A DNA stretch of 64,000 bases from a bacterium (GTDB lineage: Bacteria > Oederibacteriota > PGYV01): contig JAKQNO010000040.1 in the NCBI GenBank assembly GCA_029565735.1, forward strand, positions 1 to 64,000, in the 5' to 3' direction. The position numbers were made by a program, and so were the translations under genes. Below, one piece after another: positions 36,457 to 55,431 of this stretch (position 1 is its first letter; every line of letters begins with the position of its first letter). Below the pieces are notes generated by a model. The model had not been told where the DNA came from. It ran no database searches and worked only from the letters and a program-made list of their open reading frames with translations.

Positions 36457-36583
36457 TCGGGCAGCAGTCTCCTGTTAGTATTTTGTTAATTATAATACTT
36501 TTAAGGGATTAAGTAAATTGAGAATTGATGGCCGGAGACATTGATATTCAAAAATGGAAATTCGAAAATTGGAAGAAACAAAA

Positions 36584-36853
36584 CAGGGGTTGGGTGTGTT
36601 TTTTCAGGGTGTGCCGCGTTAACATAGTGTGTATTCGGCAGGGGCTGTTTAATGCCGCGGTTGGAGCGAGCCTGCGAAGCGGAAATCCCCGGGCTTGCGC
36701 GAGTCTACGAGCGCAAGTGTTAGGGGACGGCAAATCCGTATGTGCCGGGAGTTTACGATAGCCAATGACGTTAATTAAGTGCTGATTTCAAAATTGTTTA
36801 CCTGCAAGAATACCAATTTACAGCGCACCCTGAAAAAATATACCCAAGCCCTG
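36584..36853 (+). repeat. MITE-like element copy A (270 bp, carries a 67-bp nested insertion)
   Basis: Termini CAGGGGTTGGGTGTGTTTTTTCAGGG ... CCCTGAAAAAATATACCCAAGCCCTG. Confidence 0.85.
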
Positions 36854-36940
36854 TCAAACACGAGGATCAGATGTACAGATGCACGGAGGTAAATCCGCAG
36901 CTGGGCTGTCGAAAATTAAAGACAAATACAACACCAACTG

Positions 36941-45444: not shown

Positions 45445-45535
45445 TATAATTATATTTTATTAAAGGCAAAATGCAAGCAATAAAGACGGAGGGACAGATG
45501 GACGGATGCACAGAGGGACGGAAGTAAAACCATTA

Positions 45536-45738
45536 CAGGGATTGGGTGTGTTTTTTCAGTGCGTGCCGACCTAATCTACTGTTTATGTGGCAGGGGCTGT
45601 TTAATGCCGCGGCGGCATATTCGTATGTGCCGCGGGTTCCCGATTGCCAATGAATTAACATGCCTGATGATTTCAAGTTTATTTGGATACAAACATACCA
45701 ATTTGAGGCGCGTACTGAAAAAATATACCCAAGCCCTG
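45536..45738 (+). repeat. MITE-like element copy B (203 bp)
   Basis: Termini CAGGGATTGGGTGTGTTTTTTCAG ... CTGAAAAAATATACCCAAGCCCTG, flanked by TA on both sides. Confidence 0.88.
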
Positions 45739-45784
45739 TAAAACAGATGGACGGATGCACAGAGGGACGGAAGTAAAACCAATA

Positions 45785-45987
45785 CAGGGATTGGGTGTGT
45801 TTTTTCAGTGCGTGCCGACCTAACCTACTGTTTATGCGGCAGGGGCTGTTTAATGCCGCGACGGCATATTCGTATGTGCCGCGAGTTCCCGATTGCCAAT
45901 GAATTAACATGCCTGATGATTTCAAGTTTATTTGGATACAAACATACCAATTTGAGGCGCGTACTGAAAAAATATACCCAAGCCCTG
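45785..45987 (+). repeat. MITE-like element copy C (203 bp), near identical to B, 249-bp tandem period
   Basis: Same termini; flanking TA; start offset exactly 249 bp from B. Confidence 0.88.
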
Positions 45988-46053
45988 TAAAACAGAGGGA
46001 CGGATGCACGAAGGGACAGAGGGACAGAAGTAAAAACAAATCTAAATCAACTA

Positions 46054-46081
46054 CCGCGGGCTGAAGACCCGCGTCTACCAC
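46054..46081. repeat. REP-like GC palindrome
   Basis: CCGCGGGCTGAAGACCCGCGTCTACCAC. Confidence 0.8.
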
Positions 46082-47755: not shown

Positions 47756-47990
47756 CTTATGCTTATCTGCCTATAGCTTAATTACTTATTCTTTCTGTTT
47801 ATTCTTTCCGCTTATGCTTATCTGCCTATAGCTTAATTGCTTATTCTTTCTTTTTATTCTTTCCGCTTATGCTTATCTGCTTATAGCTTAATTGCTTATT
47901 CTTTCTGTTTATTCTTACCGCTTATGCTTATCTGCCTATAGCTTAATTGCTTATTTTTACTCTTATGCTTATCTGCCTATAGCTTAATAC
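47756..47990. repeat. Tandem array, 5 units, 55-bp period (last unit after a 41-bp step), core CTTATGCTTATCTGCCTATAGCTTAATTG
   Basis: Unit starts at 47756, 47811, 47866, 47921, 47962; inverted copy at 47703-47731. Confidence 0.92.
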
Positions 47991-49362: not shown

Positions 49363-51713
49363 TGTCCTGTCTGTTCTCCTTTAATTTTTTTATATAAGTC
49401 CCATAATGCTTTGCTCTGCGGAAAGGCCTTAATGCCTGTTTCCAGTTCTAAAAGCGCCTGCTTCTCATTCCCGCTTTCATTTAACGCAATTGCAAGGTAA
49501 AGTATGGCATTTTCACTAACCGTCTCATTATTAGACTGTCCAAAACACTCAATTGCCTTTTGATAATCTTTTGTTTTAAAATGAAACACTCCTAAATTCA
49601 TGTATATTATATCTGTTTTAAACTTGTTTTCAAGTAAAAAATCATACAATTCCCGGGCGCGGATGAATTCATTTTTCTGCAGATACTGATTTGCTTTGTT
49701 AAAAGCGTAATCATTCATCTGGTAATCGTTCAGCGAAGCAAGCGCATTAATACCCCTGCTTACCGGTTCTGAATTACCGCCTCTTTCCCTGGACTTAATA
49801 AAAGCATCCTGCGCCTCTTTTAAAAATCCCCTGTCATAAAGCAATAACCCAAGCCTTTCGTACGCGGACGCAAAATCAGTATTTTTAAGCGCGGCCAACC
49901 GCAGATACTTTATTTCATTATCCGTATCATTTAACTGCGCGTACGCAAGCGATGTGTTGTAATAAATATTGCCTTCAGGTTTGTCTATCGGAAAATTCAT
50001 CGCCCTTACATAAAGTTCCGCTGCCTGTTTTGGATAACCCGCTGTCAAAAGCGCATTGGCCTGGTTCACCATAGATACCGGATACCAGCCAATAAGGTCG
50101 TAATTATTTTTATGTTCTTTTGTGAATTTTTCAAATATGCCCCTGTATGAATACATGTCATATACAGCGGGAGAATAAATCTTTCCCGCGCCGTTTAACC
50201 TTATTAACAGCCCTTTTGGCGCCGGAGCGTACATCTGCATATACGCGTCAAGCCTTGGAAGAAAAGCGCTTCTGTACGCAGGTATGGAATTATAATAATA
50301 CCCTATTATATTGTTTACATTTTTTTCGGTTTCAAACGGCTTCATGGGGATGTCATCATATTTTTTTATAAAATCGTCAATACCCCAGTCAAAAATTAAA
50401 AATGACGCGGTGGCAAAAATTACATCGCGCCTTCTTTTTTCTATTTCCTGTATATAGTAAACCGGCATAAGGTTATAGTCGCCGTCAGCCGCATAAAGCG
50501 AGCCGGCTTCCATTGTTTTCAGCAGGTTGTAACCGTAATCGTATGAAAGATAATCATTTATGTGGTTGTTTTTGGTAAAGTTCTGATGAAACATCAGCGC
50601 GGCTGCGGCAAGCGCTGCAAGGTACGCGCCACGTACAAAAATTTTTTTATTTTTCAAAAGCGTGAACGTAAACGCCGCGCCGGCTGCGGCAAAAAGCCCT
50701 ATTATATACTCCGCGGGCATAATGAAAATCTGTATAAGCCATTTTACGCCTTCCAGCGTCCTGTTGTAAAAAACAACAACCAGAATTATTAAAGCCGACA
50801 TTGACAGCAGAAGCGTGTTAAGCCTGCGCGAATAAGCGCGGACAGCTGCAATTCCCGGGATTAAAAACAGCCACAGCCATCCAAAATTCGTAAAAAACAG
50901 TTTTAAAAACTCCATTATCTGATACTTATAAACATCCCAGGTGGCATCCACCGGGCCAAGATAAGCTTTTCTTAACACAACCCAGATAAAATTTTTAAGA
51001 TTTGAAGGGTCTCCCCAGTTTAAGGCAGGGTCAGCCGACGCGCGTATAAACATATAAAGATAAGGGGTTAATCCGATTATGAAAAATAACAGGCAGAAAA
51101 AAACATTTTTAAGGGATGCTTTTTTGATATGCATTAAATAAACTGCCGCCAAAGCTGGCGCAAGCACTATCATGCTTGGCCAGTGGTTGGCAAGCGAAAG
51201 GCCGTAAATAAAAGAGATAAAATACAGCCGCCCCGGTTCAAACCTTTCCAGCAGCTCCATGACGCTCCATATAATAAGCGCCAGGAACAAAAGGTTTAAC
51301 ATATAAATTCCGCCCTTGGCTTCTGTCCCCTGGTTCCATATCATATATGAAAACATTATTACAGCGGCGCTTATGGCGGAAAGTACGGTTTCATCTTTTT
51401 TTGTTATCCTTTTTAACAGCTTCTTTAATATCATAAGCGTCATAAAAAAAACGCATAGCGACAGGAATACGGAATATAGGTTTATCCTGAAAGCCGGGTT
51501 TGCCGCTGGTATGTATGAAAATATTTTAGCGGTCACAGCGTGCAGCGGATACCCCGGCGGGTGGCCTATTCCAAGCGTGCAGGCAGCGGCGGATGTTTCA
51601 GGAGAGTCGTTGTTTTTAAATACAGGATTCATTGTATGCAGATATACAAAGACAACCATAAAAAATGACAGTGCTATTGCCGCATAACCCCTGATTTTTC
51701 CCCAATCCCGCAT
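49359..51713 (-). CDS. DUF2723-type membrane protein with C-terminal TPRs
   Basis: NDSPETSAAACTLGIGHPPGYPLHA; many TM; TPR tail. Confidence 0.85.
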   Translation of the reverse strand: MRDWGKIRGYAAIALSFFMVVFVYLHTMNPVFKNNDSPETSAAACTLGIGHPPGYPLHAVTAKIFSYIPAANPAFRINLYSVFLSLCVFFMTLMILKKLLKRITKKDETVLSAISAAVIMFSYMIWNQGTEAKGGIYMLNLLFLALIIWSVMELLERFEPGRLYFISFIYGLSLANHWPSMIVLAPALAAVYLMHIKKASLKNVFFCLLFFIIGLTPYLYMFIRASADPALNWGDPSNLKNFIWVVLRKAYLGPVDATWDVYKYQIMEFLKLFFTNFGWLWLFLIPGIAAVRAYSRRLNTLLLSMSALIILVVVFYNRTLEGVKWLIQIFIMPAEYIIGLFAAAGAAFTFTLLKNKKIFVRGAYLAALAAAALMFHQNFTKNNHINDYLSYDYGYNLLKTMEAGSLYAADGDYNLMPVYYIQEIEKRRRDVIFATASFLIFDWGIDDFIKKYDDIPMKPFETEKNVNNIIGYYYNSIPAYRSAFLPRLDAYMQMYAPAPKGLLIRLNGAGKIYSPAVYDMYSYRGIFEKFTKEHKNNYDLIGWYPVSMVNQANALLTAGYPKQAAELYVRAMNFPIDKPEGNIYYNTSLAYAQLNDTDNEIKYLRLAALKNTDFASAYERLGLLLYDRGFLKEAQDAFIKSRERGGNSEPVSRGINALASLNDYQMNDYAFNKANQYLQKNEFIRARELYDFLLENKFKTDIIYMNLGVFHFKTKDYQKAIECFGQSNNETVSENAILYLAIALNESGNEKQALLELETGIKAFPQSKALWDLYKKIKGEQTGQ

Positions 51714-54662: not shown

Positions 54663-54701
54663 ATAGGCAATTAAGCTATAGGCAATTAAGCATAAGCGAA
54701 A
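54663..54701. repeat. Isolated copies of the TAAGCTATAGGCAATTAAGCATAAGC motif
   Basis: ATAGGCAATTAAGCTATAGGCAATTAAGCATAAGCGAAA. Confidence 0.75.
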
Positions 54702-54815
54702 CGGAAATCCCCGGCCTGAAGCGAGCTTGCAAGCGGAAGTGTTAGGTGAATGCACGGAGGGACGCAAGAAAAAACAGACATCGAAAATTCTAGATTCGAA
54801 AATTAGAAGAACACA

Positions 54816-55018
54816 CAGGGGTTGGGTGTGTTTTTTCAGGGTGTGCCGCGTTAACATAGTGTGTATTCAGCAGGGGCTGTTTAATACTGCGACGGCAAAT
54901 CCATATGTGCCGGGAGTTTACGATTGCCAATGACGTTAATATAGTGCTGATGTCAAGATTGTTTGACTGCAAGAATACCAATTTGCGGCGCGCCCTGAAA
55001 AAATATACCCAAGCCCTG
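54816..55018 (+). repeat. MITE-like element copy D (203 bp)
   Basis: CAGGGGTTGGGTGTGTTTTTTCAGGGTGTGCCGC ... GCGGCGCGCCCTGAAAAAATATACCCAAGCCCTG. Confidence 0.88.
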
Positions 55019-55076
55019 TAAGAACGATGGTCGGAAGGTCAGAAGGTCGGAAGTAAATACAAATCTAAATCAACTG

Positions 55077-55104
55077 CCGCGGGCTGAAGACCCGCGTCTA
55101 CCAC
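55077..55104. repeat. REP-like GC palindrome
   Basis: CCGCGGGCTGAAGACCCGCGTCTACCAC. Confidence 0.8.
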
Positions 55105-55125: not shown

Positions 55126-55159
55126 ATAAAAAGGGCCCAATTTCTTGGGCCCTTTTTTT
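55126..55159. terminator. Intrinsic terminator GGGCCCAA-TTTC-TTGGGCCC
   Basis: A-rich/T-rich flanks on both sides. Confidence 0.85.
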
Positions 55160-55160
55160 A

Positions 55161-55223
55161 TGGTGCGAGGAGGGGGACTTGCCCACCTCGGAATTCTTAT
55201 CATAACCTCCTAGGGCCCCTCGC
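55161..55223 (-). pseudogene. Partial tRNA-Leu 3'-end duplication / degenerate tRNA-like remnant
   Basis: Minus strand CAAGTCCCCCTCCTCGCACCATAAAAAAAGGGCCC is identical to the 3' end plus terminator of the intact tRNA-Leu; 5' part GCGAGGGG... not a convincing tRNA. Confidence 0.4.
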
Positions 55224-55280
55224 CCGCTTTTTCTTCGCTGTTCGCTCAGCGCGGGCTCGCTTCAAGTCCCCTTTATAATA

Positions 55281-55315
55281 AAAAAAAGGACCCGAGAAAT
55301 CGGGCCCTTTTTTTA
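55281..55315 (-). terminator. Intrinsic terminator of tRNA-Leu
   Basis: Minus strand GGGCCCGA-TTTC-TCGGGTCC-TTTTTTT. Confidence 0.85.
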
Positions 55316-55399
55316 TGGTGCGAGGAGGGGGACTTGAACCCCCACGGAGTTACCCACAGGCACCTCAAGCCTGCGTGTCTACCATTTCACCATCCTCGC
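55316..55399 (-). tRNA. tRNA-Leu(GAG)
   Basis: GCGAGGATGGTGAAATGGTAGACACGCAGGCTTGAGGTGCCTGTGGGTAACTCCGTGGGGGTTCAAGTCCCCCTCCTCGCACCA; loop TTGAGGT, encoded CCA. Confidence 0.95.
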
Positions 55400-55431
55400 G
55401 CTGTGTTTGATTTTAACAACAACAGATTAAA

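Follow-up and report, generated by a model that had tools for sequence, protein, structure and literature searches.

A probably old, genus-restricted intergenic hairpin repeat whose folded plus strand may be functional

The repeat and its copies in the window

The window, a stretch of 64,000 nucleotides that forms the start of contig C18 of genome G000 (2.47 Mb, 163 contigs), contains four copies of a repeat, all of which are in the same orientation (table 1), as a previous sequence-only reading had stated. That reading gave copies B, C, and D a length of 203 bp; all four copies lie on the + strand, and the true limits are one base outside those given on each side, yielding elements of 205 bp that run from ACAGGG to CCCTGT. 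The arms of copy D are mismatched at the five positions named previously, four of the five mismatches being of the G-U type, and the double change at arm position 25 between copies B and D was confirmed.

Table 1. Copies of the repeat in the window and parts of copy D
Feature	Position	Strand	Description
Copy A	36583..36854	+	205-bp element interrupted by a ~66-bp foreign repeat
Insert of copy A (GTTGGAGCGAGCC...GCGCAAGTGTTAGGG)	36660..36725	+	second repeat family, ~66 bp
Copy B	45535..45739	+	tandem neighbor of copy C, 98% identical
Copy C	45784..45988	+	tandem neighbor of copy B
Copy D, element under study	54815..55019	+	
Copy D, left stem arm (ACAGGG..GCCGC)	54815..54849	+	
Copy D, interior, 135 nt	54850..54984	+	conserved blocks; no conserved helix or coding phase
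Copy D, right stem arm (GCGGCGCGCCCTGAAAAAATATACCCAAGCCCTGT)	54985..55019	+	

The repeat that interrupts copy A (~67 bp, GTTGGAGCGAGCC..GCGCAAGTGTTAGGG) is found at the same few interior positions in many copies (L027, L028, L031, L032, L034, L036, L041, and L117), where it follows model position 77 or ~155 and directly precedes CGGC, and element sequence is deleted in some of these copies. Sequence related to it is also located at 54700-54747. The intergenic regions around most copies are mosaics of other repeats (e.g., 45490-45530, 45990-46070, and 55060-55100), including GAGGGACGGATGCAC.. and GGATGCTTGGAGGCTTAG.., a REP-like hairpin (GTAGACGCGGGTCTTCAGCCCGCG), and ATCGAAAATTCGAAATTCGAAAATTAGATTAACACCT, which lies to the left of many copies. 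A duplicated stretch at 55130-55190 and 55270-55400, consisting of a terminator-like hairpin (GGGCCCAATTTCTTGGGCCC) and a tRNA-Leu 3'-end fragment, lies ahead of the full tRNA-Leu(GAG) and is present as a single copy in genome G002. Five TTAAGCTATAGGCAG-type repeats at 47767-47990 are located on the minus strand, opposite to the other repeats of the window.

Distribution of the family

The family comprises about 35-40 real copies per genome in three genomes of one genus (G000, G001, and G002), a density of ~1 copy per 60-80 kb. A BLAST search with the element returned 57, 49, and 47 pieces in G000, G001, and G002, respectively, and 0 matches among 56 other relatives searched. A covariance search, as had been proposed for collecting further genomic copies, gave 45, 48, and 43 matches in these three genomes, which include some reverse-strand echoes of the element's palindrome, and zero matches in 42 further genomes from the phylum. 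The copy numbers are lower bounds as several contigs end inside an element copy (C4, C7, C9, and C14 of G002; C99 and C112 of G001). The element was absent from the phage, plasmid, and viral collections searched, and a match in a Cyclobacteriaceae MAG (L109) was dismissed as chance, covering only ~29 nt within a glycosyltransferase gene. An association with tRNA genes is not general (3 of 60 loci). The family displays the general features of MITEs: it is short and non-coding, carries terminal inverted repeats, and is present in many copies. The three genomes together contain 73 distinct near-full-length copies.

Strand-specific pairing of the terminal stem

Among the 73 copies, the cells of the ~34-bp terminal stem consist of 2083 Watson-Crick pairs, 274 G.U pairs on the + strand, 16 A.C, and 104 other combinations, compared with 2037, 283, 30, and 127, respectively, expected if the two arms vary independently. 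Watson-Crick pairs are thus above the expectation, A.C and other mismatches below it, and G.U pairs slightly below it. The proportion of paired stem cells is 97.0%, and invariant blocks are present in both arms. Both observations that had been made on the stems of the window copies, compensatory change and a strand bias of the G-U mismatches, extend to the family. Changes on both sides affect nine stem pairs, compared with 2.8 in shuffles (0/500, 57-copy alignment). When stem changes are counted as events on the tree, Watson-Crick pairs changed to G.U 54.6 times and to A.C 10.9 times (p=6e-8). Mutational bias was rejected as the source of this wobble bias because the background runs the opposite way: interior substitutions on the same strand lean toward A.C-making (376) over G.U-making changes (244). 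A tree-aware covariation screen of all pairs found no single pair with E<1, so that the covariation evidence holds for the stem as a whole. Overall, pairing of the stem on the + strand is under selection, and the Watson-Crick excess over independence indicates selection for + strand pairing and not merely against pairing on the - strand.

The folding energies point to the same strand. Copy D folded as RNA has a z score of -8.05 (0/200 shuffles) and a folding energy of -94.7 kcal/mol for the + strand of the element (E+), compared with -66.9 kcal/mol for the opposite strand (E-); E+ has the lower minimum free energy in 71 of 73 copies. At two stem pairs G.U is the most frequent state (56/73 and 62/73).

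In divergent copies both arms are altered together (L104, ACATGGATTCAG..; L118, ATAAGGGTTATG..). The divergent subfamilies with coordinated arm changes (L104 1501-1704, L118 518-722, and L102 1501-1705) lack one inner stem base. Paired arm changes of the kind seen in L104 and L118, long terminal inverted repeats, and invariant blocks in each arm would also be consistent with a conventional MITE mobilized by a DDE transposase (of the IS630/Tc1 type or another), in which the arms are merely double-stranded transposase sites. A strand-biased wobble is, however, unexpected for a double-stranded site.

A constrained, non-coding interior

The interior sequence is constrained: many of its columns are near-invariant and others freely variable, and the family consensus contains the blocks TTTAATGC, CGGCA, GATTGCCAATGA, TTAAC, ATTTCAAG, and ACCAATTT. 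Substitutions on terminal branches, which make up 77% of the tree length, are equally uneven among columns (variance/mean 4.7), and columns without internal-branch change have a mean of 1.6 terminal changes, compared with 9-12 in the variable columns. Protein coding was considered as an explanation and rejected, since there is no 3-base periodicity and no frame is open in most copies (the best, on the minus strand, is open in 29/73); the previous statement that the copies encode no credible protein is in line with this result. Neither the consensus fold nor the covariation screen found a conserved or supported helix in the interior, which is unusual for a functional ncRNA. Of the features of a structured ncRNA family, the element has a covarying one-strand stem but neither conserved interior helices nor a credible match in Rfam.

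Orientation relative to genes and replication

At 80 loci, the tandem-transcribed flanking genes are antisense to E+ in 48 cases and sense in 0, and the flanks are convergent in 14 and divergent in two (an earlier count gave 44:0 tandem, 12 convergent, and 4 divergent). E+ has a negative GC skew in 71 of the 80 loci, which places E+ on the lagging-strand side, the G-rich strand being taken (by assumption) as the leading strand. The switch of GC skew and gene strand near 235 kb in contig C7 of G002 separates three full copies on the + strand from the terminal copy beyond it, which is on the - strand; of the fragments in this contig, one (50402-50443) reads - and one near 1.9 kb is ambiguous. 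A clear exception to the orientation is the copy at G000:C44:17326-17597. Background long gaps comprise 54 tandem-leading, 10 convergent, 4 divergent, and 4 tandem-lagging cases, so that tandem loci with lagging genes number 0/48 for the element and 4/58 for the background, numbers that are too few for a distinction. Gene direction is nearly collinear with fork direction here, so that either could set the orientation of the element. An orientation shared by all intergenic repeats was rejected as other repeats in contig C7 of G002 are mixed (GAGGGACGG 15:19, GGATGCAC 7:6).

The orientation lock, the conservation of interior blocks without helices, and the copy density would fit a chromosome-polarity or nucleoid site, i.e., an element bound by protein as double-stranded DNA, for which the direction relative to the fork is important and the strand bias is a by-product of barring the hairpin from the sense or lagging-template strand. 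Selection against E- pairing predicts an excess of G.U pairs, however, and the stem displays 274 against an expected 283 with Watson-Crick pairs in excess instead. Furthermore, no known motif was recognized, and a site of this kind is considered quite unlikely.

Search for a mobilizing enzyme

No autonomous element with the same ends was identified. In G002, for which all arm matches were listed, no arms lie 0.5-4 kb apart, matches being at element spacing or single only, and a scan of G001 and G000 with the arm pattern found no such element among the matches listed. The IS630/Tc1-like TA target that had been suggested from TA on both sides of copies B and C does not extend to the family: a TA..TA pair flanks 19 of 73 copies and is missing from copies A and D, and no target duplication is apparent, with direct repeats of lengths 2-11 not clearly enriched at any offset (largest excess 6% above expectation). 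Together with the missing arms at transposase-gene spacing in G002, the orientation lock, and the orthologous retention described below, these results make an ordinary MITE of a DDE transposase very improbable.

Each genome contains two Y1 transposase genes (Y1_Tnp), six loci in total, four of which are TIR-flanked (L181-L184), a known arrangement (PMC3733652). None of the six carries the arm of the element, the TIRs at L181-L184 being other sequences, and the GTAG tag of REP sequences is absent. Membership in IS630 or TIRYT is thus not supported. The Y1 gene at L181 is accompanied by inverted repeats starting GGGACGGACCTTGAG (1262-1287, 1359-1384, and 2455-2480); the most frequent intergenic repeat likewise has GGGACGGA as its core, and the L181 gene is a possible mobilizer of it. 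Terminal repeats are also present at L182 (1327-1367/2402-2442), L183 (883-923/1952-1992), and L184 (1349-1380/2457-2488), those of L182 and L183 being 41-nt near-perfect palindromes (TAAACGCCCTGTCTGGGGTC..).

The presence of Y1 genes raises the possibility of a REPIN/TIRYT-like ssDNA element, in which an HUH (Y1) transposase would recognize the arm hairpin, strand pairing and orientation would reflect transposition of ssDNA at the fork, and conservation would reflect the competence to move. The orientation lock, the lack of a TSD as in IS200/IS605-type elements, and tandem arrays duplicated together with their flanks, as in REPINs (PMC3116915), agree with this explanation. Against it, no Y1 locus has the ends of the element, the interior is conserved, unlike a spacer, recent copies are missing, and the stable-folding strand is the leading-strand template, whereas the reported target of such elements is the lagging-strand template (PMC6006769). 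An ssDNA element is possible but rather doubtful.

Age and orthologous sites

At 14 distinct sites, copies in two or three species are bordered on each side by orthologous genes. Each genome pair shares 6-7 sites, compared with about 3 expected at random, a rough expectation that lets copies fall freely among about 425 long gaps (an extrapolated figure). Four orthologous copy pairs are 91-92% identical and mutually nearest, compared with a mean identity of 79.8% (sd 3.5%) for all between-genome copy pairs. At the remaining shared sites the copies are no more similar than paralogues, indicating that re-occupation or conversion also happens. Orthologous elements align nearly gap-free, and gaps and lower similarity are often seen in their 150-bp flanks (exceptions are L069-L092 and the left flank of L012).

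A clean empty site was not found at the sites of copies A, B/C, and D or at one G002 site (G002:C7:183202), which revealed remnants or unrelated sequence instead. The G002 sites orthologous to A and B/C contain degraded left arms, the G000 site orthologous to G002:C7:183202 contains a right-arm remnant, and in G001 a contig end at this same site resembles the right end of the element; the D site in G002 holds unrelated sequence without a clean junction. Identities of at least 95% between copies occur only in tandem neighbors and in no dispersed pair. The earlier suggestion of a mobile element, if meant as current mobility, is thus not supported, given the lack of near-identical dispersed copies, the orthologous retention, and the remnants at orthologous sites. 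The best reading is that the family spread long ago and is now mostly inherited vertically under constraint.

Comparison with known repeats

The element resembles REPINs (REP doublet hairpins with RAYT transposases) in its two inverted arms and spacer, its single-strand hairpin, the lack of an internal autonomous gene, and tandem arrays that take in the flanks. It is unlike REPINs in having no GTAG tag, a conserved interior, and a strict orientation lock, and no matching RAYT was found. The element is also about twice as long as a REPIN. Likewise, ERIC, Correia/NEMIS, RUP, and bcr1, the last of which is also placed among the MITE-like hairpin repeats, share with it a length of 100-200 bp, an intergenic location, TIRs, restriction to a taxon, and a long transcript hairpin, which is here predicted from sequence. 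Reviewed MITE-like repeats (ERIC, Correia/NEMIS, and RUP) mostly have TA termini and a TSD (PMC2229807); the element differs from these and from bcr1 in the lack of TA/TSD and in its fixed orientation against genes. TIRYT repeat families combine TIR-flanked Y1 transposases with dispersed TIR families, as found here, and G-T pairing has been noted in REP stems (PMC3733652), but the TIRs at the Y1 genes of the present genomes differ in sequence from the element.

A possible role of the folded strand

Since selection keeps E+ foldable, E+ should be single-stranded DNA or RNA at some time, and we infer that it acts as a folded single strand. RNA is favored by the two stem positions at which G.U predominates and by the expectation that E+, as the template of both transcription and leading-strand synthesis, would seldom be ssDNA; it is disfavored by the lack of interior helices and of an evident shared promoter, inspection of the flanks having revealed neither a promoter nor a terminator shared among the copies. 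The head-on position of the copies relative to replication is also odd for an expressed RNA gene. The tentatively preferred reading, held with slightly less than even confidence, is that of an old, vertically kept, REPIN/ERIC-like intergenic hairpin repeat, restricted to the genus, whose folded + strand may be functional as RNA rather than as ssDNA. E+ RNA would be made by antisense or divergent transcription within the intergenic gap, and its long stem could block, or be cut in an RNase III-like manner, as transcription heads to the 3' end of the neighboring gene. It is also conceivable, if unlikely, that the fixed anti-fork orientation and the one-strand hairpin of this multi-copy, vertically maintained element constitute the function itself (e.g., controlling antisense transcription or the passage of the fork in a polar manner) and not a remnant of transposition.

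Small bacterial hairpin repeats are common and are usually dismissed as selfish debris. In this family, sequence alone points to selected strand-specific pairing, a single orientation, and orthologous maintenance, and with ~40 natural replicates per genome the turning of repeats into host functions would become directly testable.
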